Below, one piece after another: positions 6,005 to 28,944 of a stretch of 40,338 bases of DNA; position 1 is the first letter of the stretch; the number at the start of each line of letters is the position of its first letter. A program made the position numbers and the translations under genes. This DNA is from Bacilli bacterium (GTDB lineage: Bacteria; Bacillota_I; Bacilli_A; RFN20; UBA1709), in assembly GCA_028693955.1 (NCBI GenBank), contig JAQUUH010000008.1:1-40338 (forward strand), written 5' to 3'. Below the pieces are notes generated by a model, which made no database searches, was not told where the DNA came from, and was given only the letters and a program-made list of their open reading frames with translations.

Positions 6005-6228
6005 AATTTAGACTCCAATGATTTAAATGCTTCAATTAATTTATCAACATCTTCTTTTGTTAATTCAGTATATGCTGGTAAACCATTGATACTATTATTT
6101 ATTTTTTCAATCAGTGCATCATCAATACATTTTGCATTTTTTATCTCATTATTTATAGTTTTATATGAAGTGACTTTTTGTTTTGCTTTGTATATTTCTT
6201 TTTTTAATACAGCATTATAATAAGCTAT

Positions 6229-6588
6229 TTAATCTTCATCTTGTTGGCTACCTATAAACTTTTTTATATATCCAATATCGTTGTTATCTTCATTTTGAGA
6301 GATAACAATTGCTTCTGTGTATGGTAATAATCTCTTCATAATCAACATTAAACCTTCACCAGAATATTTTTCATCAATAACTGTACTATCTTCAAACAAG
6401 TTTGAATCAATTAAGACTATTTTTGCATTTTTAAGTATTAAATAATCTACCAATTTATTATATGTGGAATCTGTTTTGAAAATTATTTCTTCATAATCAA
6501 ATTCTTTCATTTCTTGATCTAAATATTGACTCAACTGTAATTCAGGATCATCATCAATATATATAAGTTTTAATTTTTTATCAGTCAT
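6229..6588 (-). CDS. Receiver (REC)-like response regulator domain protein
   Basis: LKLIYIDDDPELQ...KIVLIDSNLF...AIVISQNED; overlaps the stop of the upstream kinase gene. Confidence 0.75.
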   Translation of the reverse strand: MTDKKLKLIYIDDDPELQLSQYLDQEMKEFDYEEIIFKTDSTYNKLVDYLILKNAKIVLIDSNLFEDSTVIDEKYSGEGLMLIMKRLLPYTEAIVISQNEDNNDIGYIKKFIGSQQDED

Positions 6589-8717: not shown

Positions 8718-8726
8718 CTTATCCTC

Positions 8727-10187
8727 CTAAAACATATATTTCTTTACATCATTTGGTGTTATTCGTTTTGATTTTCCTGATGATGTAATTCCAATCTCAT
8801 TTATATAATTTAAAAAATCATCTGATTCTAAAGTTTCTTTAGCTTTTTCCAATGTATATTTTTCATCAATCTCTGTTATATATATTCCTGAATAAGGTAT
8901 CTCATTTTCTGATAATTCATACACTTTTACTTTATTCGTAATAATTATACTCATCATTATTTTTTTTTGATTCATATTTGTTAAAGATTGAGATCGACCA
9001 TATTCAAACCAATTTACTCCTGATTCATTATCCTTATTCGTTAATTCTATTTTGTATTTTTCTAAATACTTGTATGCAAAAGGAAATTTTTCTTTAAATG
9101 TTTGTTCTGTATATCTTTTTATTTCTTTATTATCATTAATTTTATATGGGAAAATAATATATTCAGTCTTTGAAAAAGCACAATTTTTAGGTGATAATGC
9201 TTTTTTAGTTATTTCTTTTTCTATTTTTTCGGTACCAACATAATAATACAACTCGTCTTCGTTATCAATTTCAAATACAAATGCTTTGTTAAATAAAGTA
9301 GCTAATGTACTACCTACATTATACAAAGAGCCTAATTCTTTTTTTGAATCTTCAGATGTTTCATATATTTTTAGGAATTTCCATTTATCAACGAGATTAT
9401 CTTTATTAATATCAAAACTATTTTGAGTTATATTATCATAATAATTAAAACTTTTTGAAAGACATTTTACTATACAAAGTATAGAAGTTGTAACTGTTAC
9501 ATTTGGAAATACATCAGCACCATAATTATCAATTATTTTTTTTATATATGGTTTAATAATATTTCTTAAATCTTTTGCAGAAACATTCTTATATATACTA
9601 TTTGGTATTAAATATGACATTTTACCATCTTGAGATAATAAGTTAAATGATTTTTCTATAAAAGCATAACAATAATCAAATCTACCATATTTACAACTAT
9701 TAAAGTTTTCTTTTAGGTATATTCTATTATCTTCAGTTAATTGTTTATAATTAATATATGGAGGATTTCCGATTATGTAAAAAAAATTCTCATCAATCTT
9801 AGCTTTTAAAAAATCTTCTTGTTTGAATTTCCAATTAATTGTTTCATACATGTTATTGTTTAATACTTTTTGATTTAATTTTTCTATGCAGCTTTTGTAT
9901 TTATTTTCATCAATTTCATAACCATAAATATCATTTTCTAATCCTTGTTTGATTTTATTATTACTAAAATTATTTTTCCTACAATCATCAATATAAGTTT
10001 GAACTATTTCAACTAAAATCGCTCCATCACCAAATGAATTTTCTAATACTTTTTTCCCAAATAGATTTTTTTCATAATCTATACTTGAAAGTAAAAGTTT
10101 TGCATATTTAGTTGGAGTAAAAACTTGACATTTAGTGTAATTCATTTCATCTAACATAATATTACCTTTTTCTATAAATACTGACAA
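8727..10187 (-). CDS. N6-adenine DNA methyltransferase (Eco57I/type IIG-like, no visible nuclease domain)
   Basis: FTPTKYAKLLL...VLENSFGDGAIL (motif I) and FYIIGNPPYINYKQL (motif IV NPPY); C-terminal TRD-like region. Confidence 0.85.
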   Translation of the reverse strand: MSVFIEKGNIMLDEMNYTKCQVFTPTKYAKLLLSSIDYEKNLFGKKVLENSFGDGAILVEIVQTYIDDCRKNNFSNNKIKQGLENDIYGYEIDENKYKSCIEKLNQKVLNNNMYETINWKFKQEDFLKAKIDENFFYIIGNPPYINYKQLTEDNRIYLKENFNSCKYGRFDYCYAFIEKSFNLLSQDGKMSYLIPNSIYKNVSAKDLRNIIKPYIKKIIDNYGADVFPNVTVTTSILCIVKCLSKSFNYYDNITQNSFDINKDNLVDKWKFLKIYETSEDSKKELGSLYNVGSTLATLFNKAFVFEIDNEDELYYYVGTEKIEKEITKKALSPKNCAFSKTEYIIFPYKINDNKEIKRYTEQTFKEKFPFAYKYLEKYKIELTNKDNESGVNWFEYGRSQSLTNMNQKKIMMSIIITNKVKVYELSENEIPYSGIYITEIDEKYTLEKAKETLESDDFLNYINEIGITSSGKSKRITPNDVKKYMF

Positions 10188-10775: not shown

Positions 10776-12366
10776 TTATATTTCTTCAATAATTTTTAAA
10801 TCACATTTAAATTGAAACTCTAATGTATGTTTATCAATTGCTTTAATATATTCTATTAATTTTCTCATTATTTGTTGGTCATATAGATCAACTTTTTCTT
10901 TACTTAATGTATCTAGAATTATTTTCATTTTTTCTTTCTTAATCTGAATATTAGTATTTTGTGATTTCTTTTTTTCTATATCTTCTTCTAGACTATGGAT
11001 TTCCTCGCTTAATCTTATATATTCATTATTATAATATTCATCTGTTATTTCTTTATTTCTTTTCTTTTGGAAGATTTCCATAATAAGTTTTCTATCATTG
11101 TTTATTTTCGTTTCAATTGGTTCTATATTTTTGCTACAATCATTATTTAACTCTGAATTGATTGTCTCTTTGACCATTTCCACAAGCTCTGACAAATCTC
11201 CAGAAAAGCGTTCAATAACTCTTTTATATGCTTCTATGATATCAGTTTCTTTAATTGGTAACATTTTCCAACTTCCATTATCTTTTTGATGACCAATACA
11301 CACCCATGTTTTTACAATTCTCCCATCAGCTACTCTTCTTCCATGTCTTCTAAAATTGCTTCAACAATCACTACATATAAGAAGTCCACTTAATGAATTC
11401 TTACTACTATACTTTCCATTACCAGTATTAGCTGTTGGCCTAAGAGATGTCCTATTCTTTTTTTTCTTCTTGTACCATATCAAACAATTCTTGTGTAATT
11501 ATAGCAGGATGGCTATTCTCTACATAGTATTTAGTTGCCTGTCCAGTATTCTTCACTCTAGATTTGCTTAAGACATCAGCTTTATATGTTTTTGCTAAGT
11601 ATGAATTTCCAGTATATTTTTCATTTGCTAGAACACCTTGAATGCTACTTGGTGTCCAGGTATTACCTAGTTTAGTTGTTATCTTTTCATCATTTAATGC
11701 TTTAGCAATTTGTCTAATTGTTTTTCCAGTAATGTATTCAAGAAATATTCGTTTAACAACTTTTGCTTCATCTTCTACAATCACATAGTCATCATTAACT
11801 TTATTATACCCCAAAACTGTTTTATAATTAATTAATACTTTACCTTCTTGAAATCTTTTTTTATATGCCTATTTAATGTTTGTTGAAATACCACGTGACT
11901 CTTGTTCTGCAATTGCAGCAAGAATTGTAATGAGTACTTCTCCATTAGCAGTCATTGTGTCTATTCCTTCATTCTCAAAGTATGCACTTACACTAATATC
12001 CTTTAACTCTCTAATATAGCTTAGTTTATCAACTGTATTTCTAGAAAATCTTGATATTGATTTAATAAGAATTCTATTGATTTTTCCTTCTCTTGCATCA
12101 CTAATCATTCGCATAAACTCTGGTCTTTTTTCTGCTTTAGTACCTGAAATTCCTTGATCTGCATAACCTTCAACATAATTCCATTCAGGATGCGATTTAA
12201 TTAGTTCCTCAAAGTGTGCTTTTTGTCTTTCATATGATTCTTCTTGTTCATCAAAATCAGTACTTACTCTAACATAATAGGTTACATTTTCTTTAGTTAT
12301 AACCTCTGTCATGTTTGCTCTAAATAATGTAGGGATTTCTTTAACAACTCTTTTACTAGTCTCCAT
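10776..12366 (-). pseudogene. Large serine recombinase, disrupted by several lesions
   Basis: TYYVRVSTDFDEQEESYERQ...SISRFSRN...AEQES, then TAG at 11869 where related proteins have Trp (NIK*AYKKRFQEGKV), in-frame continuation to 11452, frameshift, TGA in the zinc ribbon (CSDC*SNFRRHGRR), then ORF 10776-11303 with coiled-coil C-terminus. Confidence 0.8.
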
Positions 12367-12970
12367 ACTTTTGTTTCTCCTTTACTTGCTTTTTCTTCCA
12401 ACCTTTTTGATTACCTGATGGTCCATTTGAATATTTTTTAGTTATTTCTACTCCGTTAATAAATCTAAATGTTACTTTGTTTTTAAATATTTTTACTTTT
12501 TCTAAGAAGATTTCTACTTTTTGTTCATCAAACACAACTAGTTCTTTACAATCAGTTTTAACCATATTTCTAATTTCTGATATTGATATTTTATCAGTTA
12601 ACTCTTTTATTTCTTTTCTAATTACTTCTACTTCTTTATTATAATCGTTAATATCAATTAATCTATTAATCTTCAAAACTTTTAATTCATTTTCTTGTTT
12701 GACTAAAATTGCAAGTTTATTTTTATCATCAATTTGTTCATCATTATCTAGTTTTGTATTAATGAATTCATTATAACTTTCTACAAACTTACTCTTTAAA
12801 ACATCATCCTTTATTCTTGTATTATCGCATACTTTTTTTACCATAATTATTTTAGTTACTACATGACCATATCTCACATCTCCATGACTTGTTAGTATTA
12901 TTAAACTTGTGATTAAATCCTTTACCACAAACTCCACATACTATTTTACTTGTAATGCCTCTGGACAATA
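12356..12970 (-). pseudogene. C-terminal remnant of a second large serine recombinase
   Basis: Frameshifted zinc ribbon VCGVCGKGFNHKFNNTNKSWRCEIWSC followed by CDNTRIKDDVLKSKFVESYNEF coiled coil. Confidence 0.7.
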
Positions 12971-14065: not shown

Positions 14066-15252
14066 TGTTATATTACAATACATATGAGACCAATATTGAT
14101 TAAAACGCAAAAGTGATTTATACTTTGCACAAAGAAGATAACCACAACGAAATTTCTTCACACAAGGAGTATAAATCACATGGCTATTATATCACATAAA
14201 TCTCATGATATCAAAACAAAATTTCATGCTGTTTCATCTTATCGTAATAATCATTATTCTATTGCTCATATCTGTTCTAAATATCACATCTCTAAAGCTT
14301 CCCTAATGCGTTGGAATAAAGCTTTCGATGGTTCTTGGGATTCCTTAAAAGAGAAAAGTCGTCGTCCTTTATCTCCTCATCCTAATGCTCATACTGATTT
14401 GGAACTTCTTAAAATATCTTCTCTCATTAAACGTAATCCTCATATCGGTCTTACGGAACTATATACAAAACTTAGGCAACAAATTGCTTATTCCCGCCAT
14501 TATTCTAGTTTATATCGTGTTCTAGTTAAACTCGGTTATTACATCAATAAGTCTAATATTAAGAAAAGATATGTCCCTAAAAAATATCATACCCCTGAGT
14601 TGTTAGGAGAAAAGATGCAATTAGATGTTAAATATGTTCCTAACGATTGTAACGCAAATTTAAGGGACGATTATCATTATTTTCAGTATACTATCATTGA
14701 TGAAGCTTCTAGAGAAAGGTTTATCTATCCTTATAAAGAACAAACTTCTGCTAGCACCATTGATTTTCTTTATCGAGCTATTTGTTACTTTGGATACATC
14801 CCCAGAATTATTCAAACTGATAATGGCTTTGAGTTCTCTTACTTTAGGGAAACTAAGAGAGTTCATCCTTTTGATTTAGAATGTCAGAAGTTAGGGATTA
14901 TTCATAAAACCATTAAACCCAGAACTCCAAGACATAACGGTAAGGTTGAGCGCAGCCATAGAAATGATAATGAAAGATTCTATCGCTTTCTTAAATTCTA
15001 TAACTTTGAAGATCTCATAAAACAAATGAAAGCTTACTTAAGAAGATCAAATAATATTGGTATGACTCCATTGAATTACAAAACACCTATCCAAGTTAGA
15101 CAGCATTTAATAATCAACAATATGATTAACTATTTATCTTGTAAATAATTTTTTAACTGCCTTCATTCTAGGGGGACACATTCCCCCTAAAACCCCTTTA
15201 ATCTTATCTTCTTTTTTTAATTATTTTGTCTCATATCATTTACAATTATACA
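14066..15252 (+). mobile_element. Insertion sequence with DDE (rve) transposase, IS481/IS1202-like
   Basis: Imperfect 25-bp terminal inverted repeats TGTTATATTACAATACATATGAGAC / TGTATAATTGTAAATGATATGAGAC; flanked by 26-bp direct repeats. Confidence 0.85.
14180..15148 (+). CDS. DDE-type integrase/transposase
   Basis: N-terminal HTH (YHISKASLMRWNKAF) plus rve core: MQLDVKYVP, IIQTDNGFEF, HNGKVERSHRND. Confidence 0.9.
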   Translation: MAIISHKSHDIKTKFHAVSSYRNNHYSIAHICSKYHISKASLMRWNKAFDGSWDSLKEKSRRPLSPHPNAHTDLELLKISSLIKRNPHIGLTELYTKLRQQIAYSRHYSSLYRVLVKLGYYINKSNIKKRYVPKKYHTPELLGEKMQLDVKYVPNDCNANLRDDYHYFQYTIIDEASRERFIYPYKEQTSASTIDFLYRAICYFGYIPRIIQTDNGFEFSYFRETKRVHPFDLECQKLGIIHKTIKPRTPRHNGKVERSHRNDNERFYRFLKFYNFEDLIKQMKAYLRRSNNIGMTPLNYKTPIQVRQHLIINNMINYLSCK

Positions 15253-15645: not shown

Positions 15646-16278
15646 TTATTCATCTAATTTATCAATAAGTTTAAGTTTTATATCTCGTTTAACTTTTAAT
15701 TCAAAACCAGTATGAAAAGCCGAATCCTCATGTTGAGTAAAATCTATATCTTTAACAAGTGGTTCATCAACAATGTATAAATAAGATGGTTTTACTTCAC
15801 CATCATGGAAAATATTTGGTCCATCAATTGTCACAAATGAAGGTTTATGTGAAAATGCTATTGCAAGTTCTTTACATGGAGTAATATCAGATCCCTTTTT
15901 TAAATATTCTATCGGATTTGATGATCCATAATAATATTTTTCATCATCAAATCTTGAAATTGTTAAACTCTTAGAAAGGAAACGAACACCACCTCCTTCA
16001 CAATACCATCCTTTATCATCACATAAATTTCTAAATAAATTCATTATTTCATACGGGCTTGTATTTTTAGGTGCATTTACATGAGCTTTCAGAACAAACT
16101 TTTCAGCGTTGTTTTCATCATATTTTATATTATTTATTTCGAATGGGATAATTTTTTTATCAATGCATTTTTTAAAATATATTCTAATTGCAGTTGATAA
16201 ATCTAAACCTAAGTCATTAAAAAATTTACTTGCTTCATCTTTTAATTCTTCATCAATTATTATTTGTAGAATAGCCAT
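15646..16278 (-). CDS. RelB/DinJ-type antitoxin domain fused to a putative ADP-ribosyltransferase-like C-terminal domain
   Basis: N-term MAILQIIIDEELKDEASKFFNDLGLDLSTAIRIYFKKCIDKKIIPFEI is RelB/DinJ-like; C-term KYYYGSSNPIEYLKKGSDITPCKELAIAFS...SYLYIVDEPL resembles ART-fold YHGS...A..YIV pattern. Confidence 0.6.
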   Translation of the reverse strand: MAILQIIIDEELKDEASKFFNDLGLDLSTAIRIYFKKCIDKKIIPFEINNIKYDENNAEKFVLKAHVNAPKNTSPYEIMNLFRNLCDDKGWYCEGGGVRFLSKSLTISRFDDEKYYYGSSNPIEYLKKGSDITPCKELAIAFSHKPSFVTIDGPNIFHDGEVKPSYLYIVDEPLVKDIDFTQHEDSAFHTGFELKVKRDIKLKLIDKLDE

Positions 16279-16537: not shown

Positions 16538-18307
16538 TTATTTTTTATTTATAAAAAAATCAGCTTGTGATTCAAATAATCTTTTATATATACTATTACT
16601 CTTATTCATCAATTCATAATGTGTTCCAATTTCCTTAATGGTTTTATCACTTATTACAATAATTTTATCACTAAATAAGCAACTAGATAATCTATGAGAT
16701 ACAAAAAATACAAAGTTGTTTTCAGTATATTTATTAATACTATTATACACATTGAATTCTGATTCTATATCTAAAGAAGCTGTTGGTTCATCAAGAATTA
16801 ACAAATTAGATTCTTTATAAAATGTTCTTGCAATCGCAATTTTTTGTAATTCACCTCCACTGAAATTGACTCCACATTTATCAAACCATTTATTAATATA
16901 TGTATTTATTCCGGAATCAAAACTAATAATTTTATCATATATTTCTGCTTTTTTTAAAGAAGAAAACAATTTTTCATTATCATTGGACTTTATACATATA
17001 TTGTCTTTTACAGTGAAAGAAAAAATAGAATAATCTTGGAACATACAATTTACAGCATTATAAAGTGAATTATTATCAATACTATTTATATCTATATTAT
17101 TTATATATATATATCCTTTTGATGGTTTAAGTAAACCACATAATAATTTAATTAAAGTGGATTTACCAGCTCCATTTATACCAACAATGGATATTTTTTG
17201 GGGTTTATCTAATTCTAGATTAATATTTTCTAATACATAATCACTTTTTTTCGAATATTTGAAATATAAATCTTTAATTTTTATAGAATAAATTTTAGTA
17301 ATTTTGACTCCATTTTTTCTTTTTGTTGGTTCTTCAATAATATAAATATAATTTATTAAGTAATTACAATCATTAAAATATAAATTTAAATAAAAAAGTA
17401 AATCTGACAAAGAATTTCCAAAATTTTTTGCAATTGAAAATAGTAATACTATAGTTGAAATATTCAACATATTTTTTTTATAATCAAATAATAAGACTAT
17501 AATAGGTAATATATTTATAAATAAAAATTGTAACAGAATATTTATAGAACTTAAAAATATGTTTTTATTAAAATGTTTGTCCATTTTGTTAAAATAATTT
17601 TTATTATATTTGTCAGTATACAAATCAATAATACATTTAATATTGGATGTTCTACATATAATTTGATGCCTAATATCATATATAGAATTATTAAAATAAC
17701 TTTGTATTTTTGCAATTTCTGTTGATTCATAATTAAATTTTTGTTGATTTTTTAACATTCTATTAGTAATATAACTTGTCAAAATTATACCAAATGATAA
17801 ACATATAAATAATAAATATTGCTTATATGACAAAAAAATAATAATTATACCAGTTAGTGTTATTATTCTTTGCATTATGTTTTTTAAATTATAGATTACT
17901 CCATATGCCCCATTTGTATATTCATTTAAACACTTTTTTGCATAGTATAATTTATCTAAATATTCTTTATCTTCAAAATTCATATAATCAATTTGTGTTA
18001 TTTTTTTATTTAATAAATCATCAAAATAAACAATAACTTTTTTAGAATAAAAAAAGTTTATTTTTTCCAATAATGTAGATGAAATTCTTAATAATATATA
18101 AATAGTAAAATAAGATAAGACATTTATATATATATATGTATTATTGACATTGTCAATAATTAATTTTGGTAAGTATGTGATTAAAATACTATTAAAGCTA
18201 TTTATTACTATTTCTAATACTAATAAAATTAAAAAAATTTTTGAGCATCTAAAAAAATGTTTTATAAAAAAAGTAATAGTTTTACATATTAATTTAACTT
18301 TCTTCAT
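16538..18307 (-). CDS. ABC transporter, fused TM + ATPase (peptide exporter-like), subunit 2
   Basis: Walker A GINGAGKST, signature FSGGE, Walker B LLILDEPTASLD, H-loop FVSHRL; no C39 peptidase domain. Confidence 0.92.
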   Translation of the reverse strand: MKKVKLICKTITFFIKHFFRCSKIFLILLVLEIVINSFNSILITYLPKLIIDNVNNTYIYINVLSYFTIYILLRISSTLLEKINFFYSKKVIVYFDDLLNKKITQIDYMNFEDKEYLDKLYYAKKCLNEYTNGAYGVIYNLKNIMQRIITLTGIIIIFLSYKQYLLFICLSFGIILTSYITNRMLKNQQKFNYESTEIAKIQSYFNNSIYDIRHQIICRTSNIKCIIDLYTDKYNKNYFNKMDKHFNKNIFLSSINILLQFLFINILPIIVLLFDYKKNMLNISTIVLLFSIAKNFGNSLSDLLFYLNLYFNDCNYLINYIYIIEEPTKRKNGVKITKIYSIKIKDLYFKYSKKSDYVLENINLELDKPQKISIVGINGAGKSTLIKLLCGLLKPSKGYIYINNIDINSIDNNSLYNAVNCMFQDYSIFSFTVKDNICIKSNDNEKLFSSLKKAEIYDKIISFDSGINTYINKWFDKCGVNFSGGELQKIAIARTFYKESNLLILDEPTASLDIESEFNVYNSINKYTENNFVFFVSHRLSSCLFSDKIIVISDKTIKEIGTHYELMNKSNSIYKRLFESQADFFINKK

Positions 18308-20075
18308 TTATGCCCTTCCTATAATTAATTCCTTGTTTATTATAAAGTTCATAATATTTCCCTTTTTTTTCTATTAATTCATCATGGCTACCATTTTCAA
18401 CTATTTTTCCATCTTCAAGTAAAAGAATTTTATCACAAAATGTAATAGAGTTTAACCTATGAGTTATAAATAATCCAAATCTATTTTTCATATTATTTTT
18501 TAGTAACTCGTATAATTTAATTTCAATAAAAGGATCTAATGCTGCAGTAGGTTCATCCATAATAAAAAACTTTTTCTTACTATTTATAATTCTCAATATA
18601 TTAATCTTAGCTATTTCTCCACCACTTAATTGAACACCAGTAGAATATAATTCTTTGGAATAACAATATCCATTTTCTATATTATTTATTAGATTATCAT
18701 TTAATTCAATTTCTTTATATAATAATGATAAATTTTCTTTTTCCGTATTTTCATATAATATATTTTCTTTTAAACTGATTGCTAATAAAGGATTATTTTG
18801 AAATAATATATCCAAGTATTTAAATATACAAGTTTTATCAATATTTTTTATATCTATACCATTAATTTCTATTATACCTTCAGTTGGTTCGTATAAACCA
18901 CATAATAATTTTACAAGTGTCGTTTTTCCCGCACCATTTAATCCGACTAAAGCTATCTTCTCATCAGAAATTTTTAAATTAATATTCTTTAAAACATATT
19001 TATTTGAATCAAAATATTTGAATGAAACATTTTTAAATTCAATTAATTCAATTTCATCTATAGTTTTTAAATTGGTTATTTTTTCTCCAATAATATATTT
19101 ATTTTTGAAATCAATTAAATCTTTTAAATATAATTTATTATTAATAATACTAACAATAAACGATATTATCTGATTTAATGCAATTATCACAGATGAAGAA
19201 ACTGTTATATAATAAACAAAATTTGCTGTATCAATATTATTATTAATATATCTCATTATAAAATATACATAGCATACTAAATATTCCAATATTTCAAGCA
19301 AGACTTTAACTATTCCTAATTTAGATTTTATAATTTGATTGTCTTTTAGTTTTTTAAAGTAATTATCAACTTCAATTTTTTTCATTTTATTAATTTTATC
19401 AAATAGTGAAAAAATCCTAATTTCTTTAGCAAATGATACATTATTACATATTGAATTTAAATAATTAATTTTTCGTGTTACTATTCTGGTATTATTATAA
19501 TATTTATTTTTTTCTATTCTTTTTTGAAATATACTAATTAAAATTGAAAGAATTAATATGACAATTATAATTAAAGCCATATAAAAATCAATTAATAATA
19601 AAAAAGGTATAATAATTGTAAAACACGAAAAATATGATATAAAAGAAATTTGATTTGTTACAATTGCAATAATTCCAGTATTATTTCCTAAATTGTATAT
19701 AGCATTATTATACATATCTTGTGTTTCTGATAATTCGTAAACAGAATATGGAATATTTAAAGTAAATTTATTAAAATCTAATTTCATTTTAATAGAAATC
19801 TTATATTTATTCTTACTTTCAAGATAACCAAAAATATTGCTAAAACATTTTAATAAAAAAGAAAGTAGTATAATTATTAATACTTTTTTTATAAAAAATG
19901 ATATATTATCATTTTCTAAATAAATAATAAAATTTTTAATTATATATGGTGTGATAATTAAATTAAAACAAATAAGAATGTTTTTTAAAAATACATAAAT
20001 GCAATAATTTTTGTTATGAGATATAAATTTAATTATTTCATTATTAATGGTATCTTTTTTCATATATTTATTCAT
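18294..20075 (-). CDS. ABC transporter, fused TM + ATPase (peptide exporter-like), subunit 1
   Basis: GLNGAGKTT, LSGGE, FIMDEPTAALD, FITHRL; overlaps both neighbours (4 and 14 nt). Confidence 0.92.
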   Translation of the reverse strand: MNKYMKKDTINNEIIKFISHNKNYCIYVFLKNILICFNLIITPYIIKNFIIYLENDNISFFIKKVLIIILLSFLLKCFSNIFGYLESKNKYKISIKMKLDFNKFTLNIPYSVYELSETQDMYNNAIYNLGNNTGIIAIVTNQISFISYFSCFTIIIPFLLLIDFYMALIIIVILILSILISIFQKRIEKNKYYNNTRIVTRKINYLNSICNNVSFAKEIRIFSLFDKINKMKKIEVDNYFKKLKDNQIIKSKLGIVKVLLEILEYLVCYVYFIMRYINNNIDTANFVYYITVSSSVIIALNQIISFIVSIINNKLYLKDLIDFKNKYIIGEKITNLKTIDEIELIEFKNVSFKYFDSNKYVLKNINLKISDEKIALVGLNGAGKTTLVKLLCGLYEPTEGIIEINGIDIKNIDKTCIFKYLDILFQNNPLLAISLKENILYENTEKENLSLLYKEIELNDNLINNIENGYCYSKELYSTGVQLSGGEIAKINILRIINSKKKFFIMDEPTAALDPFIEIKLYELLKNNMKNRFGLFITHRLNSITFCDKILLLEDGKIVENGSHDELIEKKGKYYELYNKQGINYRKGINEES

Positions 20076-21550
20076 TTAATCTTTATTTTATCAAATTCTT
20101 TAACTAATTTGGGATTAAATTCAAGAATTGTAATAGCCTTTTTTATTCTAAAATATACTTCGCTTCGATATGTTTTACATTTATCAATATTTGAGTACAA
20201 AAATTTCCAACACATATGACAATGTACAATTGCCCAACACTTATTACATTTTTGTATTAAACTAGAAAAATCATTAATTATTTTATCTATTTTTTTATAG
20301 TTATAACCATCTGAAACGTTACCTATTAAATATTTTTCGTTATTAATATCAACTTTCTCACATGGAAAGATATTTCCATTAACATCAACAAACATTTTTC
20401 TTTGGCCTAAAATACAGCAACCATTATTCCAAAAGTATCCATTATTCTTTAATTTAATATCAATATTTTTAAAATATGGTGCTAAAGCATCATCATAAAC
20501 ACTTAATTTGATTCTTTCCTTCGTACTATCTACTAATCCCAAATAATATCTTTCAGATATTTTTTCCTCTTTTTTCAAATCTTTTATTTTATAAAATAGC
20601 TTGTTTTTATTTAAAATTTGAAAATATTCATTAATTTTTTCAATATTATATCCAGGTGATAAATCACTGAACATAAATCTATTTTCAGGAAATTTTTCTA
20701 CAAAAAAATTTATAACATAATCTTTATATTTTAGTTGGGGAATAACAGCATTAAATGAAATATTGTTTTTAAAATATACTGGATATTTATTTTTTATCAT
20801 CATTAAATTATTAAATATTTTTTCATATGTTCCCGAATTATTAATCGTTATTCTTCCTGCATCATGGATCCATTGTGGTCCATCTAAACTTACTAATAAA
20901 TGAAAATTATTATTATATAAAAAATCTAAAATTGTTTCATCCAACAAATACAAATTTGTAGTAAAATTATAATGATGTTTTTTTGTTTTAACATTTTTAT
21001 TAATATAATCAACTACAAATTTAATATTATTAAATGCAATTAAAGGCTCCCCTCCATAAAATGATATTGCTATATTCTCGCTATCTTTAGAATAATTAAG
21101 AAAATTATCTAAGCTCTTCTTAATAATATCAATACTCATATCTTTATTAGCATAGCAATCTTTTTCATAATAAGTATCAGACCAACAACAATATTTACAT
21201 CGAAAATTACATTTTTTAGTAACTTCTAAAACTAAAACTTTACTTTTATTCTCCAATAAATCTTTAATATTTTCTTTGTTATACCAATATTTAGGCTGAC
21301 CAAAATCAAATCCATTTAAAATATTGTTTTTTTCAATAAGCATCTTGACTAAATTATATCCTTCTTCATATTTATTAATAATTTCATTTGATATTTCTTC
21401 TCCAATTTTAGTATGTAATTTAGCCTCTTTGAAAAAATCATAAGCTTCTTTAGATATTTTTACATAATTATTTGTAATTGAATCATAAGCATAATAAAAT
21501 CCATATATATCAAATAGCATCATAATTGGTAATTTCATTTTTTCCTCCAT
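20072..21550 (-). CDS. Radical SAM/SPASM peptide maturase
   Basis: EVTKKCNFRCKYCCWSD (CxxxCxxC), SFYGGEPL, C-terminal SPASM cysteines CCILG...IFPCEKVD...CNKCWAIVHCHMCW...CKTYR; N-terminal PqqD/RRE-like segment. Confidence 0.92.
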   Translation of the reverse strand: MEEKMKLPIMMLFDIYGFYYAYDSITNNYVKISKEAYDFFKEAKLHTKIGEEISNEIINKYEEGYNLVKMLIEKNNILNGFDFGQPKYWYNKENIKDLLENKSKVLVLEVTKKCNFRCKYCCWSDTYYEKDCYANKDMSIDIIKKSLDNFLNYSKDSENIAISFYGGEPLIAFNNIKFVVDYINKNVKTKKHHYNFTTNLYLLDETILDFLYNNNFHLLVSLDGPQWIHDAGRITINNSGTYEKIFNNLMMIKNKYPVYFKNNISFNAVIPQLKYKDYVINFFVEKFPENRFMFSDLSPGYNIEKINEYFQILNKNKLFYKIKDLKKEEKISERYYLGLVDSTKERIKLSVYDDALAPYFKNIDIKLKNNGYFWNNGCCILGQRKMFVDVNGNIFPCEKVDINNEKYLIGNVSDGYNYKKIDKIINDFSSLIQKCNKCWAIVHCHMCWKFLYSNIDKCKTYRSEVYFRIKKAITILEFNPKLVKEFDKIKIK

Positions 21551-21611
21551 ATCTTAATGCTTCACTTTCAGTGCAAACACCTTATTAAATGAAGCTCTCT
21601 AAATTTGATTT

Positions 21612-21644
21612 TTTCTAATATACTATATAATAGTATATTAGAAA
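21612..21644. repeat. 33-bp perfect palindrome (15-bp arms, 3-nt loop)
   Basis: TTTCTAATATACTAT-ATA-ATAGTATATTAGAAA. Confidence 0.9.
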
Positions 21645-22044
21645 GTGTAATGATGTAATTAGTAAATAAAATTCATAAACATATGATTTTTAATTTACTT
21701 TAAGATTTTAGTATGATATATCCTCTTTCATATCATTTAAAAAATATTAAAGTTTAATTCGAGTTTCGTAAATACAAATGAATATAATTTAATCTCTAAT
21801 CTTATATTTAAATTATTTAACCCATCTAATATTTGTATTATCGATAATGAATTTAATTATTAATATAGATCTATAATAGTAGTATGATATATTTTTTGAT
21901 AATACATATGTAGATATAATTAAATAAAAACACATTTAATACGTCTACTTTATGTATTATTCTAATAAATATAATGCTTATTATAATTTGAACTATGGTT
22001 AACACATATTTAGTGCTCAATTATAATAAAGCATTATATTTTTA

Positions 22045-22063
22045 TAATAATAAGTGTATTTAT
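22045..22063 (+). repeat. Left arm of 19-bp inverted repeat flanking precursor genes
   Basis: TAATAATAAGTGTATTTAT. Confidence 0.85.
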
Positions 22064-22078
22064 TTTATGATATATTAT

Positions 22079-22216
22079 TTAATGTTGATAACGACCTGCA
22101 TCATTATTATTTCCATCATTAGTTTGTTCTTCATCAGAAGTACCCTTGCAAACACAACCATAGACTTTTATATTTAAACTAGTTTTTTTAATTATTCCAT
22201 ATATCATTTTATTCAT
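22079..22216 (-). CDS. Putative RiPP precursor peptide 2 (45 aa)
   Basis: MNKMIYGIIKKTSLNIKVYGCVCKGTSDEEQTNDGNNNDAGRYQH; start codon overlaps stop of precursor 1 (ATGAATAA); shares IYGI.KK and YGCxC with precursor 1. Confidence 0.75.
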   Translation of the reverse strand: MNKMIYGIIKKTSLNIKVYGCVCKGTSDEEQTNDGNNNDAGRYQH

Positions 22217-22379
22217 AATCTTCACCAGTAGCACCAGATGACAAAAATTTATCGTTCACTTCTGATGTTGAATCTGGTTTGTTTGCATCATTGGGTGAAC
22301 CACAAGCACAAGTACAAGCACAACCATATAACTTAAATTCTTTTAAAATATTCTTTTTCATTATTCCATATATATTCAT
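22209..22379 (-). CDS. Putative RiPP precursor peptide 1 (56 aa), Cys-rich
   Basis: AAGGAGGTAATT-ATG RBS; MNIYGIMKKNILKEFKLYGCACTCACGSPNDANKPDSTSEVNDKFLSSGATGEDYE; CxCxCxC core. Confidence 0.82.
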   Translation of the reverse strand: MNIYGIMKKNILKEFKLYGCACTCACGSPNDANKPDSTSEVNDKFLSSGATGEDYE

Positions 22380-22400
22380 AATTACCTCCTTATATTATTT

Positions 22401-22419
22401 ATAAATACACTTATTATTA
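22401..22419 (-). repeat. Right arm of 19-bp inverted repeat flanking precursor genes
   Basis: Reverse complement is TAATAATAAGTGTATTTAT, identical to 22045-22063. Confidence 0.85.
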
Positions 22420-23931
22420 AACTAGATTAAGTAATTGATTATAAGAATCTATTAAAATAAAATCTATATTTTCTGATAACAATTCTTTTTTTATTTTACT
22501 TTTTTTACTAATATCTATATCAAAACGATTTATTTTATCATCTTCATTTAAATATTCATCATATAAATTATTAGATAAAAACCCGAGATAAACTTTTGTA
22601 CCGCTTAACAATTCAATATAATTTTGTAATTCTTTAATTTTATTTATTCTATCATTACAATTTAATACTAAAATAACTCTATCATAATTTTTTGATAAAA
22701 ATTTATTCAAATTATCTTTAAAATTACTTGAGTAATCGTTATATAATTTACAATAATAAAAATCATATCTATTTCCAGTTGGGTGATTTTTTTTATGAAA
22801 TATATTCATACCAATGTTTGTAGAATTTACTTTAAACCTCTTTAAACTTTTACACATCTTATACTCAATTTCATATAAATCATTAAAATTATTACTTGAA
22901 ATAAATGCAGTAGAATATTCATTCATATTGTTTTCGCTCTCAAAACATTTATTAATATATAATTTACTATTATTATTTATAAAATTAGGAATTATTTTTA
23001 TAATTTCATTCATTTCAATTTTAAAATTACCATATAAAAAATAATTATTTATACAACTTAAATTTATATTAATATTGGAGTTATCATCAAATGTAAGTAA
23101 AATTATATTACATGTTTCAATAGGTAATTCATTAATAGTATCAATTTTCTTATTATTTATAATAAGATTTAAATTCTTAATCAAAAAATAATCTTTATAA
23201 AATAAAAAATCTATATTCCATATTAATTTTATTTTTTTTAAATAATTCTTAAAAATAAAATATGTATAAAAATCATTTATGACAAGAACATTCTTAATAT
23301 TGTTATTAATAATATCATTATTAAAATAAAAACAGTCATTAATCCTGTTTAATAATAACATACTTCCAAAAAATGCGGTTGAATAACTAGATCCAGATGT
23401 AGAAATGAAATTATTTTGTTCTTTAAAATACCATTTTCCATTACAACAATAATGGTTTTTTATTTTAAAAATTTTACTATTAATCTCTTTTGAATCAGAA
23501 ACACCAAATACACCTTTTATTAACGCAGGGAATAATGTTTCTTTTTCATTTTGAGCTGAAACTATTTTAATATTTTTACTTAGTGCAATATTAATTATAT
23601 CTTGTAATTTATTAAAATCCTCTTTATCAATCTTCTTTTTATCAATACCACAGCTTAAATTAATTAAATCAACATCATCATTAATAGCCATTTCAATTGC
23701 ATATATTACTTCATTAACGCCAGAATATAATTCATCAAAGAAAACCCTATAGCTTCCAATAAACACATCATCTAAAAAATTTCTATACATTTTTTCAACT
23801 AAAGAACCATGTTTTAATATATCTTCCGAGTAATTTTCTTCTAAACTCATTATTTGATTTCCATTATTAAAAATAGAATATCCATAATCTGCATCTTCAC
23901 ATCCACTATCTATAATTGCTATTTTAAACAT
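22417..23931 (-). CDS. S8 subtilisin-like peptidase domain plus novel C-terminal domain; peptide maturation protein
   Basis: KIAIIDSG (Asp), LKHGSLV (His), LINLSCGI, SAQNE (oxyanion Asn), SGSSYSTAFFG (Ser); about 300 aa of unassigned C-terminus. Confidence 0.75.
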   Translation of the reverse strand: MFKIAIIDSGCEDADYGYSIFNNGNQIMSLEENYSEDILKHGSLVEKMYRNFLDDVFIGSYRVFFDELYSGVNEVIYAIEMAINDDVDLINLSCGIDKKKIDKEDFNKLQDIINIALSKNIKIVSAQNEKETLFPALIKGVFGVSDSKEINSKIFKIKNHYCCNGKWYFKEQNNFISTSGSSYSTAFFGSMLLLNRINDCFYFNNDIINNNIKNVLVINDFYTYFIFKNYLKKIKLIWNIDFLFYKDYFLIKNLNLIINNKKIDTINELPIETCNIILLTFDDNSNININLSCINNYFLYGNFKIEMNEIIKIIPNFINNNSKLYINKCFESENNMNEYSTAFISSNNFNDLYEIEYKMCKSLKRFKVNSTNIGMNIFHKKNHPTGNRYDFYYCKLYNDYSSNFKDNLNKFLSKNYDRVILVLNCNDRINKIKELQNYIELLSGTKVYLGFLSNNLYDEYLNEDDKINRFDIDISKKSKIKKELLSENIDFILIDSYNQLLNLV

Positions 23932-24790
23932 TTTTATTTACCTTTTTATATGATTCTATAATTATATCATTTATTTTCTTCACATTATTAGTTAATGTAT
24001 CTTCATTATTAAATTTATATATAGAATCACTATTATTATTTATAAACTTATTAATAAATTCTTTTTTAAAAGATATATCAGACAAAACATTATCAAATAT
24101 TGTCTTTTCTATATTTTCAGAATCCAATACAAATAGACATTTGAAAATTCCCGTCTTCCTTGATGTATTATTTAAAAAATATCTACTTTTCAACCCATAG
24201 TCATTTTCATCAATATACTCGTCATTATCACTTAAAAGCATTTTATATGTTGCATTATTCATATTAAAACCTTTAAAAATCCCTTCAATATAATAATTTC
24301 CATTTCCCAATAATTTAATTGGTACAACGTCATCGGTTATTAGTTTATATCCATAATCCAAACATAATTTAATAGATTTAGAACTTTTACCACTATTCTT
24401 ATTACCTAAAATAATATACACAAATCCATCTTTTTCAATTGCAGTAGCATGTAAAAAACAAACATCATCAATCTTGTTAAAGTAATTTTCAATACTATTA
24501 TAAATAAAATTTTTTAAAGAATAGTATAATTTTTTGTCAGATGTTAAAAAAACAGGACACATTAATTTTTTATTTATACCATAAAATTCTTTATTAAAAA
24601 TATCATAACTATTAAAAAAACTTGATTTAAATACATTTTCATCAAAATAATTAATCTCTAAATGTAAATTCGTGGCTTGTTGACTATTTGTTTTCTCAAT
24701 AAGTTCAAGATTTAATAGGTCTAATATGTTTTTATTTTTACTTAAAATTGTAATTTTTTTTTCAAATAACAAAAATGAAGTATTATACAT
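23924..24790 (-). CDS. HPr kinase/phosphorylase-like protein
   Basis: FLHATAIEKDGFVYIILGNKNSGKSSKSIKLCLDYGYKLITDDVVPIKL. Confidence 0.8.
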   Translation of the reverse strand: MYNTSFLLFEKKITILSKNKNILDLLNLELIEKTNSQQATNLHLEINYFDENVFKSSFFNSYDIFNKEFYGINKKLMCPVFLTSDKKLYYSLKNFIYNSIENYFNKIDDVCFLHATAIEKDGFVYIILGNKNSGKSSKSIKLCLDYGYKLITDDVVPIKLLGNGNYYIEGIFKGFNMNNATYKMLLSDNDEYIDENDYGLKSRYFLNNTSRKTGIFKCLFVLDSENIEKTIFDNVLSDISFKKEFINKFINNNSDSIYKFNNEDTLTNNVKKINDIIIESYKKVNKNV

Positions 24791-25775
24791 TTTTATAAAC
24801 CTCCTTGCTAAATTTAACTAATTCTTCGATTGAAATATCAATATTATTTAATTTGTGAAAAAAAATTTTCTTATATTTTTCACAATTAGTAACATTAAAA
24901 TTTTCACAAAAATTATTTAAAGAGCAATTGTAACATTTATTAAAAATACTGTAATCATTTACAATATCTCCTTTTAAATCAACAATTAAGTTATCATTAT
25001 AAAACTCACCACTATTAATTAAAATGTTTGGATAATTCTTTAATGATTTATATCCATCAAGACTCTTTTTTCTTATTTTAAAATAATCATAAAATTCAAG
25101 AAAATCAAAAAATATTTTATCTATATCTACATTTAATTTTGTATAGAGTGCAAACGTATTGAAATTAAAATTAATTTTATTAGTAAGACATAAATATATC
25201 ATATCTTTAAAGTTTTCATTAGGTAAGGGAGAAATTAAGATTTTTTTAGAATCATATTTTTCTGATATACATAATATTTCATCGGCATTGCTTGTATATA
25301 CTATTAATTGTATATTATATTTTCTAATTATATTAAAACAATTATCTACACTATCATAATCAACATGTATAACAATATTTTCACTATGATAATATAAAAA
25401 AATTATTAACTTATATAAATGATTATTTAAATTATTTTTTATGAATATATAAACATTTCCAAATATAAAACTACTCTCTTTTATATTATTAAGAATTTTA
25501 ATATAATTATTATCATCATAATGAATATATAAGTCTTTTTTAAAATCAAGATAATGGACTATTTGTAATTTGTTAATTTTTTCTAAATAATGTGAAATAT
25601 ATAAATATTCAAATGATTTATTAATATTCTCATTATCATATTTATAGTTTGCAATATTTAATAAAGAACTATATAAATCCCTGGAAATTTGTACATATTC
25701 ACAATTTTTATAATTTAAAATATAATATGAATCATGAAACTTTTTCAATATTGTTTTAGAATTTAAAATATACAT
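24783..25775 (-). CDS. SPASM-like/Cys-cluster protein with PqqD-like N-terminus, lacking CxxxCxxC
   Basis: N-term SYYILNYKNCEYVQISRDLYSSLLNI; C-term FNKCYNCSLNNFCENFNVTNCEKYK; no radical SAM motif. Confidence 0.65.
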   Translation of the reverse strand: MYILNSKTILKKFHDSYYILNYKNCEYVQISRDLYSSLLNIANYKYDNENINKSFEYLYISHYLEKINKLQIVHYLDFKKDLYIHYDDNNYIKILNNIKESSFIFGNVYIFIKNNLNNHLYKLIIFLYYHSENIVIHVDYDSVDNCFNIIRKYNIQLIVYTSNADEILCISEKYDSKKILISPLPNENFKDMIYLCLTNKINFNFNTFALYTKLNVDIDKIFFDFLEFYDYFKIRKKSLDGYKSLKNYPNILINSGEFYNDNLIVDLKGDIVNDYSIFNKCYNCSLNNFCENFNVTNCEKYKKIFFHKLNNIDISIEELVKFSKEVYKNV

Positions 25776-25788
25776 AAAAGTATCCTTT

Positions 25789-27252
25789 CTAATTAATAAT
25801 TAATGGAGAAGAATTATAAGGTAAAAACTCTACATAATCAAACACATTGTTAAAATCATCTATCAAATAAATAATAAAATTAATTCCAATATTCTTTTTT
25901 ATGTTTAACAATTGAGAAAAATTAATTTTTATTGATAAATCATTTCCATGCATTTTAATATCAACATTATTAATTGTTTCAGATCTTAACTCAATATCAC
26001 TTCGAAATAAACTTATATTTCTTGGATAAAGGGATTTTGTTATCTTAAATCCATCATTATCCTTATGTATAAATATTGGATAATATGGTTTAATGTATTC
26101 ATTATAGTTATCATATCCATATATTTGAAAATATATAATAAATTTATCATATGCCATATTATCATAAGTTATTGTAAAAATTTCACTAAATGAATAATTA
26201 CAAATTATTTTCTTTTTATTCAACAATAGAATACCACTATATTTATTATTTTTTTCTGAAAAATTAAAAATATACTTATCATAAAAGAATGCTTTAATAA
26301 AATCGATTATTTCATTATTATTTAAATAATAATTCATAAAATTTATTTCTAAATCTTTTTTAGTCCTAACATTATTCAAACTTAATTTATAAATATATTT
26401 TTCATAACTACTATTTAGAAAAACTTCAGATAATAATTCTAAACAATTTACAATTTTATTTTCCATTTTATTTATATTTATTTTATTTTTTAGTTTTTCA
26501 TAATCCATAATTATATTATGATTATTTAAAAAATCGTTTATTTCTACTATATATTTCATTATTATTTTATGGGAAAACAAAATTGAGTTAATGTTTGAAA
26601 TATAATATGAAAAATAGTTAACTAAATTCAAAAATGTCATTTCATAATTAAAAGTAGTTATAGAATGATAATTTTTCAACTCCACCAAATCTGATTTGTC
26701 ATTAAATAAAATTTGTGTTTTTTTAATATTTTTTAATTCTAATGTAAATTTATTTTTTTTATACCAAATTGTTATTTGTAATTCCTTATTCAATGAATTA
26801 AAACTATTAATATCATAAATATCTAAAATAAAATATTTATTTAAAATATTTACTACTTTATTCAGATCATCTTGTTCTAACAATATAATATCTATATCAT
26901 TATATATTCTACAATTATTATTTTCATATAATAGATAATTAAGTATTAATCCTTTATATAAGATATAACTAATATTATTCTTATTAAATATTTCAACAAT
27001 TTTAAATGCTAATTCATTTTTTTCGTTTATTCCATAAATATAGTCATCATATATAGCTTTAATTAATGTTTTTTTATTTTTGACATTAATATTTTTTATT
27101 AACTTTATATAATATCTTAAAAAAATTTTATTTTCAATTAAAAAACTCAACACATAATCAATATCTAAATCTTCAATATATTCATCTTTTAATCGGTTAT
27201 TAACCAAATCAATTATAAACTTTTGACTCGAATTATACATATTTTTCAACAC
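25789..27252 (-). CDS. NTP_transf_5-like nucleotidyltransferase
   Basis: NNISYILYKGLILNYLLYENNNCRIYNDIDIILLEQDDLNKVVNIL matches the KG...R...DIDI pattern of the family. Confidence 0.75.
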   Translation of the reverse strand: MLKNMYNSSQKFIIDLVNNRLKDEYIEDLDIDYVLSFLIENKIFLRYYIKLIKNINVKNKKTLIKAIYDDYIYGINEKNELAFKIVEIFNKNNISYILYKGLILNYLLYENNNCRIYNDIDIILLEQDDLNKVVNILNKYFILDIYDINSFNSLNKELQITIWYKKNKFTLELKNIKKTQILFNDKSDLVELKNYHSITTFNYEMTFLNLVNYFSYYISNINSILFSHKIIMKYIVEINDFLNNHNIIMDYEKLKNKININKMENKIVNCLELLSEVFLNSSYEKYIYKLSLNNVRTKKDLEINFMNYYLNNNEIIDFIKAFFYDKYIFNFSEKNNKYSGILLLNKKKIICNYSFSEIFTITYDNMAYDKFIIYFQIYGYDNYNEYIKPYYPIFIHKDNDGFKITKSLYPRNISLFRSDIELRSETINNVDIKMHGNDLSIKINFSQLLNIKKNIGINFIIYLIDDFNNVFDYVEFLPYNSSPLIIN

Positions 27253-27256
27253 TCCA

Positions 27257-27287
27257 AGTATAATATAAATTGTTCAAGTATTATACT
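27257..27287. promoter_or_regulatory. Inverted repeat, candidate operator just upstream of the first biosynthetic gene
   Basis: AGTATAATA-N13-TATTATACT immediately 5' of the nucleotidyltransferase start. Confidence 0.4.
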
Positions 27288-27344
27288 AAATATCCTTTCT
27301 ATTAATTTGGTCTTTAATAATTATTTAGCTTTATATTTATTTTA

Positions 27345-27765
27345 TTACTTTTTGTAATACCAAGCTTGTGATTTGAACATTTCATAATATAACCATTCTT
27401 TATTACTCATCAATTCTATATAATTTTCCTCTTGAATTATTTTGTTACCATCTAAATAAAGGTTCTTATCGCAAAATAAACAACTTGATAATTTAAGAGA
27501 AATGAATAAAGTCATTTTTCTCCAATTATTTCATGAAATTCTATATGAATTATATCTTCAATTAGTGAATCTAATACACTAGTAGCTTCATCTAGTACAA
27601 TAAAATCAGAATCTTTATAAATTATTCTTGCTAAAATAAATCTTTTTAATTATCTAATAGAAAACTCAACACCCAACTAATCAAACCATTTGTTAACATA
27701 TGTATTTTCTTGATTTGGTAATTCCGATATTATATTTTAATTTATTTTTTCAAAATTTATAATTC
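27345..27765 (-). pseudogene. Decayed ABC transporter ATPase fragment, related to the 16538-18307 exporter
   Basis: KIN*NIISELPNQENTYVNKWFD*LGVEFSIR*LKRFILARIIYKDSDFIVLDEATSVLD...FISLKLSSCLFCDK...YYEMFKSQAWYYKK* aligns by eye with the intact exporter; in-frame stops and frameshift. Confidence 0.8.
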
Positions 27766-27783
27766 TTATTATTTTAATATGTT

Positions 27784-28944
27784 TTAATAATTATCAAAGT
27801 ATTGCCCAATTGAATCAGCTGTAGATAATCCAAATGTTCTTAATCTTTCCTCAAGTAATACAACTTTATCAAGTTTTTCCCATGACAAACCCTCTTTACC
27901 AAAATGACCATAGTTTGTAGTTAAATGATAAATTGGTTTTCTTAAATCTAAACACTCTATAATTCCTTTTAGTGTTAATGGAAATACTTCTTTTATTGTT
28001 TTCAATATAAATTCATCTTCTACCTTACCAGTACCAAAAGTATCAATATTTATAGATGTTGGTTCAGAAACTCCAATTACATAGCTTAATGCTATTTCAA
28101 TCTTATCTGCATAACCAGCAGCTACTATGTTTTTTGCAATGTACCTAGTCATATAGGTAACACTTCTATCAACTTTAGATGGATCTTTCCCAGAGAACGC
28201 ATCACCACCATGATGATCTACTCCTCCATAAGTGTCAACAATGATTTTTCTACCAGTCAAACCACTATCAGCCTCTGGTCCGCCAATAACGAATCTTCCT
28301 GTAGGATTTATATAATATTTAGTATTTTCATCTAATAAGTTATTAGGCAATACTTTTTTAATAACATTTTCCATTATGTATAATCTTAAATCTTCGATTT
28401 TTATATCTTCGGTATGCTGAGTAGAAACAACCACATTATCAATTCTTAATATTCCATTATTACAATATTCTACTGTTACTTGTGCTTTTCCATCAGGTTT
28501 AATAAATTCAACTTTCTCTATTTTTCTAATGTCTTCTAATTGTTTTGTTAATTTATGTGCAAACATTATAGGAGCTGGCATGTATTCTATAGTTTCATTT
28601 GTAGCATAACCATACATCATACCTTGATCTCCAGCACCTTCATCATTCCTAACTCCAATTGATATATCAGGAGACTGTGTGTTTAGCATTATATCAATAT
28701 CATCATATCCAATATAACCAATCTCTTTTATTGTCATTTTTACAATATTATTTATATCTACATTAGCATATGATTTTACTTCTCCAAAAACTTTAATACT
28801 TTTTCCTATTGTAATAACTTCACACGCTACGTGACTATTCTCATCTTGTCGTAGATATTCATCTAAAATTGAATCAGCAATTTTATCACATACTTTATCA
28901 GGATGTCCTTCAGTTACAGATTCACACGTCATATATTTTTTCAT
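27784..28944 (-). CDS. metK: S-adenosylmethionine synthetase
   Basis: TCESVTEGHPDKVCDKIADSILD, GAGDQGMMYGYATNET, GGHDAFSGKDPSKVDRS-like motif (GGVDHHGGDAFSGKDPSKVDRS). Confidence 0.97.
   Translation of the reverse strand: MKKYMTCESVTEGHPDKVCDKIADSILDEYLRQDENSHVACEVITIGKSIKVFGEVKSYANVDINNIVKMTIKEIGYIGYDDIDIMLNTQSPDISIGVRNDEGAGDQGMMYGYATNETIEYMPAPIMFAHKLTKQLEDIRKIEKVEFIKPDGKAQVTVEYCNNGILRIDNVVVSTQHTEDIKIEDLRLYIMENVIKKVLPNNLLDENTKYYINPTGRFVIGGPEADSGLTGRKIIVDTYGGVDHHGGDAFSGKDPSKVDRSVTYMTRYIAKNIVAAGYADKIEIALSYVIGVSEPTSINIDTFGTGKVEDEFILKTIKEVFPLTLKGIIECLDLRKPIYHLTTNYGHFGKEGLSWEKLDKVVLLEERLRTFGLSTADSIGQYFDNY

Follow-up and report, generated by a model that had tools for sequence, protein, structure and literature searches.

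The window analysed here, a 40,338-nucleotide stretch of contig JAQUUH010000008.1 from a Bacilli bacterium, carries on its minus strand (16538–27252) a gene cluster which we interpret, with a probability of about 0.58, as a cassette for ribosomally synthesised and post-translationally modified peptides (RiPPs) of the CcpM/lachnocin radical S-adenosylmethionine (SAM) superfamily that has gained a phospho-tailoring module of the lasso-peptide type. The cluster consists of nine open genes, all co-oriented and mostly overlapping or abutting, which encode in the order from 27252 to 16538 an NTP_transf_5 protein, a 330-residue protein, an HprK-like kinase, an S8 protease, two short precursor peptides, a radical SAM/SPASM maturase and two ATP-binding cassette (ABC) exporter halves. 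All large open reading frames (ORFs) and the four overlaps (24783/24790, 23924/23931, 20072/20075 and 18294/18307) given in an earlier interpretation of the bare letters, termed the sequence-only reading, were confirmed, and its proposal of a radical SAM RiPP cluster is supported by the family matches of the maturase and the class of the precursors. The spacing of 528 bp between the precursor 2 and maturase genes contains no credible gene.

Precursor peptides and maturase

Precursor 1 (22209–22379, minus strand; 56 residues, four cysteines; MNIYGIMKKNILKEFKLYGCACTCACGSPNDANKPDSTSEVNDKFLSSGATGEDYE) opens with MNIYGIMKKNILKEFKLYGCACTCACGSPND... and its gene is preceded by a strong ribosome-binding site (aaggagg). 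Precursor 2 (22079–22216, minus strand, with its ATG at 22216; 45 residues, two cysteines; MNKMIYGIIKKTSLNIKVYGCVCKGTSDEEQTNDGNNNDAGRYQH) opens with MNKMIYGIIKKTSLNIKVYGCVCKGTSDEE..., and the two genes share 8 nt. The peptides are homologous, their alignment score being reached in 0 of 2000 shuffles. For comparison, 80 genome-contig loci with the nearest maturase genes were collected by an alignment-based search; a search of the genome contigs with the single maturase sequence gave no match. Many of the peptides adjoining the maturase genes of these loci follow the pattern MKKLGKK...TIEAY.C.C.C. A CcpM-type profile built from 33 such cysteine-rich peptides, excluding the window, ranked precursor 1 at the top (E 1.2e-4) of the 971 stop-to-stop ORFs of the window, followed in second place by precursor 2 at a weak E of 0.18, and composition-matched shuffles equalled the real scores in 0 and 2 of 1000 cases, respectively. 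These ranks and shuffle tests indicate that the two tiny cysteine-rich ORFs noticed in the sequence-only reading are real and do not arise by chance, and they support the assignment of both as CcpM-type precursors, which for precursor 2 rests equally on the likeness to precursor 1 and on the profile. When eight lachnocin peptides were used to build the profile, precursor 1 again ranked first, yet at an E of 0.31; the curated lachnocin precursor model (cut-off 40 bits) matched neither peptide, and none of the NCBIfam precursor models matched precursor 1.

The maturase (20072–21550, minus strand; 492 residues) contains the radical SAM motif CxxxCxxC at 114–121 (C114, C118 and C121) and the SPASM cysteines 379, 397, 435, 438, 444, 447 and 458, which are common to the superfamily. 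In Pfam it matches Radical_SAM (E 1.1e-12) and, just under the cut-off, SPASM (E 0.0018). The best of 18950 NCBIfam models is TIGR04068 CcpM (E 2.9e-86; 290 bits versus a cut-off of 500), followed by the lachnocin, GG_samocin, RumMC and PapB models; the lachnocin score of 199 bits and the RumMC score of 194 bits (NF035951) stay below their cut-offs of 550 and 720, and the precursors are unlike RumC. The closest solved structure by sequence is 5wgg (E 2.7e-25). The branch of the enzyme in a tree of 90 maturases is long (1.86) and lies next to the lachnocin maturases with an SH-aLRT support of 89, apart from those of CcpM type. Based on these scores and the tree, we assign it to a putative separate lineage within the CcpM/lachnocin/RumMC superfamily and not to CcpM proper.

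Probable leader protease and exporters

The S8 protease (22417–23931, minus strand) is composed of a QhpE-like catalytic N-domain and a C-terminal half. It matches Peptidase_S8 of Pfam above the cut-off (E 1e-5), and its best model is NF049966 QhpE (E 3.9e-19), the score of 68.9 bits lying below the cut-off of 165. The catalytic triad D8, H41 and S182 occupies columns that are invariant across the S8 proteins of CcpM and lachnocin loci. Profile alignment with hhalign related the protein to the CcpM-locus S8 set (96.9%, 1.4e-10) and more weakly to the lachnocin set (84.8%, 6.5e-6), whose C-terminal part matches TIGR04066. A Foldseek search with the structure model, which is trustworthy for about residues 1–130 only so that the C-terminal half was left uninterpreted, retrieved subtilisins including the RiPP proteases 4zoq (a lanthipeptide protease), PagA and EpiP. 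QhpE cleaves the leader off a thioether-crosslinked subunit (PMC7876137), and leader removal in the SacP23 system has been assigned to its S8 protein (PMC10731318). The CcpM-locus match, the QhpE model and the invariant triad render the S8 protein the likely leader protease of the cluster, as the sequence-only reading had assumed in ascribing precursor cleavage to it. Both exporter halves, half 1 (18294–20075, minus strand) and the overlapping half 2 (16538–18307, minus strand), are of MsbA type with an ABC_tran domain; half 1 shares 28% identity over 485 residues with a lachnocin-cluster ABC protein. Neither half matches a C39 peptidase, which leaves the S8 protein as the sole leader protease in sight.

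Relation to known cassettes

Three of the collected loci (L111, L118 and L122) are CcpM cassettes with maturase, TIGR04066-type protein, ACP-like protein, cysteine-rich peptide, ABC exporter and S8 protease in varying order, and five (L020, L144, L148, L158 and L161) are lachnocin loci with ABC exporter, peptides, maturase and S8 protease. The combination of maturase, S8 protease and ABC exporter is therefore ordinary for the superfamily, being the standard layout of CcpM/SacP23 and lachnocin systems, and the sequence-only reading erred in regarding it as unusual. With the CcpM cassettes, represented by the SacP23 cluster of the CcpM/CLI_3235 family whose product, expressed in B. subtilis, kills Gram-positives (PMC10731318), the window shares the maturase superfamily, CLI_3235-type cysteine-rich precursors of the form MKK...Y-x-C-x-C, the S8 protease and the MsbA-type exporter. 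It differs in the maturase score far under the cut-off, in fewer cysteines (four and two) and in the added kinase, NTP_transf_5 and 330-residue proteins. The novelty is confined to this added module, which stands in place of the TIGR04066 and ACP-like proteins.

The lachnocin clusters (NF038169, NF038170) contain the nearest maturase clade, short GCHCGC peptides, an ABC exporter and an S8 protease with a C-terminal extension. In contrast to the window, no kinase or NTP_transf_5 gene was found in the five lachnocin loci; the precursor profile match is restricted to the E of 0.31 mentioned above, and homology between the C-terminal halves of the S8 proteins is at best putative. The QhpD/QhpE/QhpF system likewise combines a thioether-forming radical SAM enzyme, a QhpE-like S8 protease and an ABC exporter, but acts on an enzyme subunit, and the window protease scores under the QhpE cut-off.

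The kinase and NTP_transf_5 module

The HprK-like kinase (23924–24790, minus strand; 288 residues; E 0.1 to the HPr kinase structure 3tqf) contains H114, the P-loop residue K135, D153 and D154, which are invariant with the kinases of two further loci, L213 and L243, and correspond to the His-Lys-Asp-Asp catalytic set of lasso-peptide kinases (PMC9266682). In lasso clusters, a kinase and a nucleotidyltransferase-like protein do modify the peptide; for pseudomycoidin, PsmN has been reported to add to the phosphate made by PsmK. The likeness to this tailoring pair drawn in the sequence-only reading is thus borne out by the catalytic residues, and the window resembles the paeninodin and pseudomycoidin systems (PadeK, PsmK/PsmN) in combining such a kinase with a nucleotidyltransferase-like protein. 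A lasso cyclase (asparagine-synthetase-like) or a transglutaminase-like B2 protease was not detected by Pfam in any cluster protein.

The NTP_transf_5 nucleotidyltransferase-like protein (25789–27252, minus strand; 487 residues) matches PF14907 above the Pfam cut-off (E 8.7e-9) and represents a long form of the family; hits to the family, obtained in 78 of the 395 genomes sampled from the class, are mostly proteins of about 390 residues. Its C-terminal domain (approximately 330–487) is common to the counterparts in L213, L243 and L232; over the full length, identity amounts to 31–32% with L213 and 25% with L243, and the YKG motif, R115 and the DIDIIL motif are invariant. Among the 395 genomes the long form was found in G341 and G411, with broken copies in G363 (L232) and G487 (L244). 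Both broken genes adjoin ABC exporters, and loci with a long NTP_transf_5 gene and an ABC exporter appear to decay repeatedly.

A parallel for the module in a radical SAM context is L213 (8522–14983) of G341, a genome of the same class. This second radical SAM RiPP cluster encodes a PapB-like maturase with SPASM domain, a PqqD-like protein, an HprK-like kinase, an ABC exporter, an S26-like protein and a long NTP_transf_5 protein with the same C-terminal domain. Compared to the window, its maturase is of the ranthipeptide type, its cysteine-rich precursor contains CxxxC repeats and ends in Ser, and separate PqqD-like and S26-like proteins replace the 330-residue protein and the S8 protease; as a substrate for a lasso-type kinase, the L213 peptide is a more promising candidate than those of the window. 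In L243 (G411), kinase, ABC and NTP_transf_5 genes adjoin radical SAM-like genes. One neighbour of the kinase and NTP_transf_5 genes there (7428–8366) encodes a protein in which a SPASM tail is joined to an S26/S24-like peptidase domain and which seems to have lost the radical SAM part at its N-terminus.

In the fetched flanks of the 80 loci, no HprK-like or NTP_transf_5 gene was found by pattern and single-sequence searches (Pfam models were not applied to these flanks), the kinase pattern being one that recovers the kinase of the window. A full-length relative of the long NTP_transf_5 protein was not found in 50 of the genomes that carry these loci, five of which gave weak partial matches. 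Within the class and phylum samples (ca. 395 genomes) the kinase and the 330-residue protein were found in the window genome alone; a plasmid search gave no match to the kinase, S8, 330-residue or long NTP_transf_5 proteins, and a phage search none to the S8 protein or, in viral contigs (IMG/VR), to the long NTP_transf_5 protein. The complement that the sequence-only reading did not recognise as a described class was hence not found elsewhere as a full set in these searches, but its halves, the maturase–S8–ABC core and the kinase/NTP_transf_5 pair, recur separately, which argues for a recombination of known modules and against an artefact.

The 330-residue protein (24783–25775, minus strand) lacks a CxxxCxxC motif and matched no family in Pfam or, at E 1, in NCBIfam including the grasp-with-spasm model TIGR04193; sequence relatives were not found in the samples searched. 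A profile of the maturases gave a weak colinear match at both ends (hmmsearch E 0.027, one sequence). The score of its N-terminus against that of the window maturase is reached by 24 of 1000 shuffles, and those of its cysteine tail against SPASM tails by 8 (SPASM of L243) and 37 of 1000, while the N-terminus shows no signal with the PqqD-like protein of L213 (867 of 1000). A single-sequence AF2 model (pLDDT 36.8) was not used. The protein is possibly a leader-binding and degenerate radical SAM/SPASM protein. Of its earlier designation as a SPASM-like partner, the suggestive likeness at the ends persists, but it has no family match and its SPASM nature is tentative.

Proposed mechanism and alternatives

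Layout, precursor class, protein superfamilies and the conserved catalytic residues of maturase, kinase and protease can be read directly from the DNA; from these we infer the chemistry, the order of steps and the activity in the following scenario. The two short precursors would be synthesised with leaders of about 15–17 residues ending ahead of a YGC core motif. The maturase would then bond the sulfurs of core cysteines to carbon atoms of further residues in the core, giving peptide 1 as many as four thioethers and peptide 2 as many as two. Subsequently, the kinase would phosphorylate a Ser or Thr in the long hydrophilic tail, and the NTP_transf_5 protein would place a sugar or nucleotidyl group onto that phosphate, as has been reported for PsmN after PsmK. 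The 330-residue protein would act as leader-binding or scaffold partner, the S8 protease would remove the leader and the two ABC halves would export the product, which by analogy with SacP23 is probably antibacterial. We consider it conceivable, though doubtful, that this genome of 0.9 Mb harbours a RiPP class with two kinds of modification, its peptides carrying both thioethers and a phosphate-borne sugar or nucleotide and a catalytically dead radical SAM/SPASM paralog serving as the scaffold that binds the leader. Our literature search, with many subscription papers outside its coverage, retrieved no paper joining HprK with radical SAM RiPPs in one pathway. If the kinase and NTP_transf_5 protein act on radical SAM peptides, the pair, linked to lasso peptides in the literature searched, would represent a portable module for unrelated RiPP backbones, and the cluster would offer a testable NTP_transf_5 substrate, sugar versus nucleotide transfer being unsettled in pseudomycoidin. 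The cluster also shows that elaborate peptide production is retained in a lineage whose genome measures 0.9 Mb.

Several observations weigh against this interpretation. The kinase matches its families weakly, with Hpr_kinase_C (E 0.014) and HprK_rel_A (E 9.4e-4) both under the cut-off, and among the family assignments expected by the sequence-only reading, those of NTP_transf_5, Peptidase_S8, Radical_SAM and two ABC_tran stood, whereas HPr kinase is weak and SPASM falls short. The exact kin of the maturase is unsure in view of its long branch and the support of 89. Searches of the cluster proteins at E 1 gave no hit to TIGR04066 or to the ACP-like TIGR04069, both found in CcpM cassettes, and a by-eye likeness of the S8 C-terminal half to the lachnocin S8 proteins, which would have made it a TIGR04066 domain, was not confirmed (0.2% in the alignment to TIGR04066-type proteins). 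The CcpM relation suggested in the sequence-only reading proved a good lead, with precursors of CcpM type and CcpM as the best-scoring maturase model, though under the family cut-off. Moreover, unlike lasso-kinase substrates with their C-terminal Ser, the cysteine-rich precursors terminate in ...EDYE and ...RYQH, and no phospho-acceptor residue can be named in them. Finally, HprK-like/NTP_transf_5 pairs without a visible radical SAM RiPP occur in L253 and L255 (Bacillota), so that the module may act elsewhere.

The latter finding is the main argument for the foremost alternative, in which the CcpM-type core produces an ordinary thioether RiPP and the kinase, NTP_transf_5 and 330-residue proteins serve another substrate (envelope, regulation or immunity), merely sharing the operon. 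The lack of a C-terminal Ser and the frequency of NTP_transf_5 proteins in the class agree with such a division of labour. However, overlaps and abutting ends tie the three genes to those of the S8 protease and the precursors, leaving no space for a separate unit, a long NTP_transf_5 protein and a kinase are also present in the radical SAM RiPP cluster L213, and the same kind of pair modifies the peptide in lasso clusters. We rate this alternative as rather unlikely.

A single-use protein maturation like that of QhpD/QhpE, or a signalling-peptide system in place of an antimicrobial, would conform to QhpE as best S8 model and to the lack of a recognisable dedicated immunity gene in the cluster, and sequence alone reveals no activity. 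It appears improbable, as the cluster contains two exporter halves and no enzyme subunit to carry a modified peptide, and the precursors group with CLI_3235-type peptides including the antibacterial SacP23.

Genomic surroundings

The host genome comprises 0.91 Mb at a completeness of 95%. The G+C content of the cluster (18.7%) lies below that of its flanks (25–30%), which fits horizontal acquisition. Directly upstream, a remnant of a third ABC exporter (27253–27783, minus strand) resembles half 2 with 52% identity over residues 468–513 and 38% over 533–582, interrupted by in-frame stops and a frame change, and indicates the loss of a third exporter half. This remnant, the low G+C content, the broken NTP_transf_5 relatives in G363 and G487 and broken recombinases nearby could mean that the locus came by horizontal transfer, is decaying within a reduced genome and no longer yields a product, but the nine open genes, intact catalytic residues and tight overlaps make this very improbable.

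Further upstream, the co-oriented metK gene (27784–28944) directly precedes the SAM-consuming cluster; since the genome yielded no second SAM synthetase gene, it is ruled out as a supply dedicated to the cluster. Rfam elements between 15000 and 31300 are tRNAs alone, no riboswitch being found, and a promoter scan gave signals at chance level. Just downstream of the cluster, 15646–16278 encodes a 210-residue protein whose N-terminus is of RelB/DinJ type and is joined to a longer C-terminal part, and an intact rve-type insertion sequence transposase is located on the plus strand (14180–15148), about 1.4 kb past the 3' end. The region 10776–12937 contains a large serine recombinase in several frames (Resolvase 11869–12366, Recombinase 11452–11814) and a second C-terminal remnant, and is read as a decayed mobile element. 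A possible defence island (5369–10187) comprises an Eco57I-type methylase (8727–10187), a 709-residue protein with two GHKL ATPase domains (6588–8717), an overlapping receiver-like protein of 119 residues (6229–6588) and an HNH protein resembling PtuB (5369–6004).

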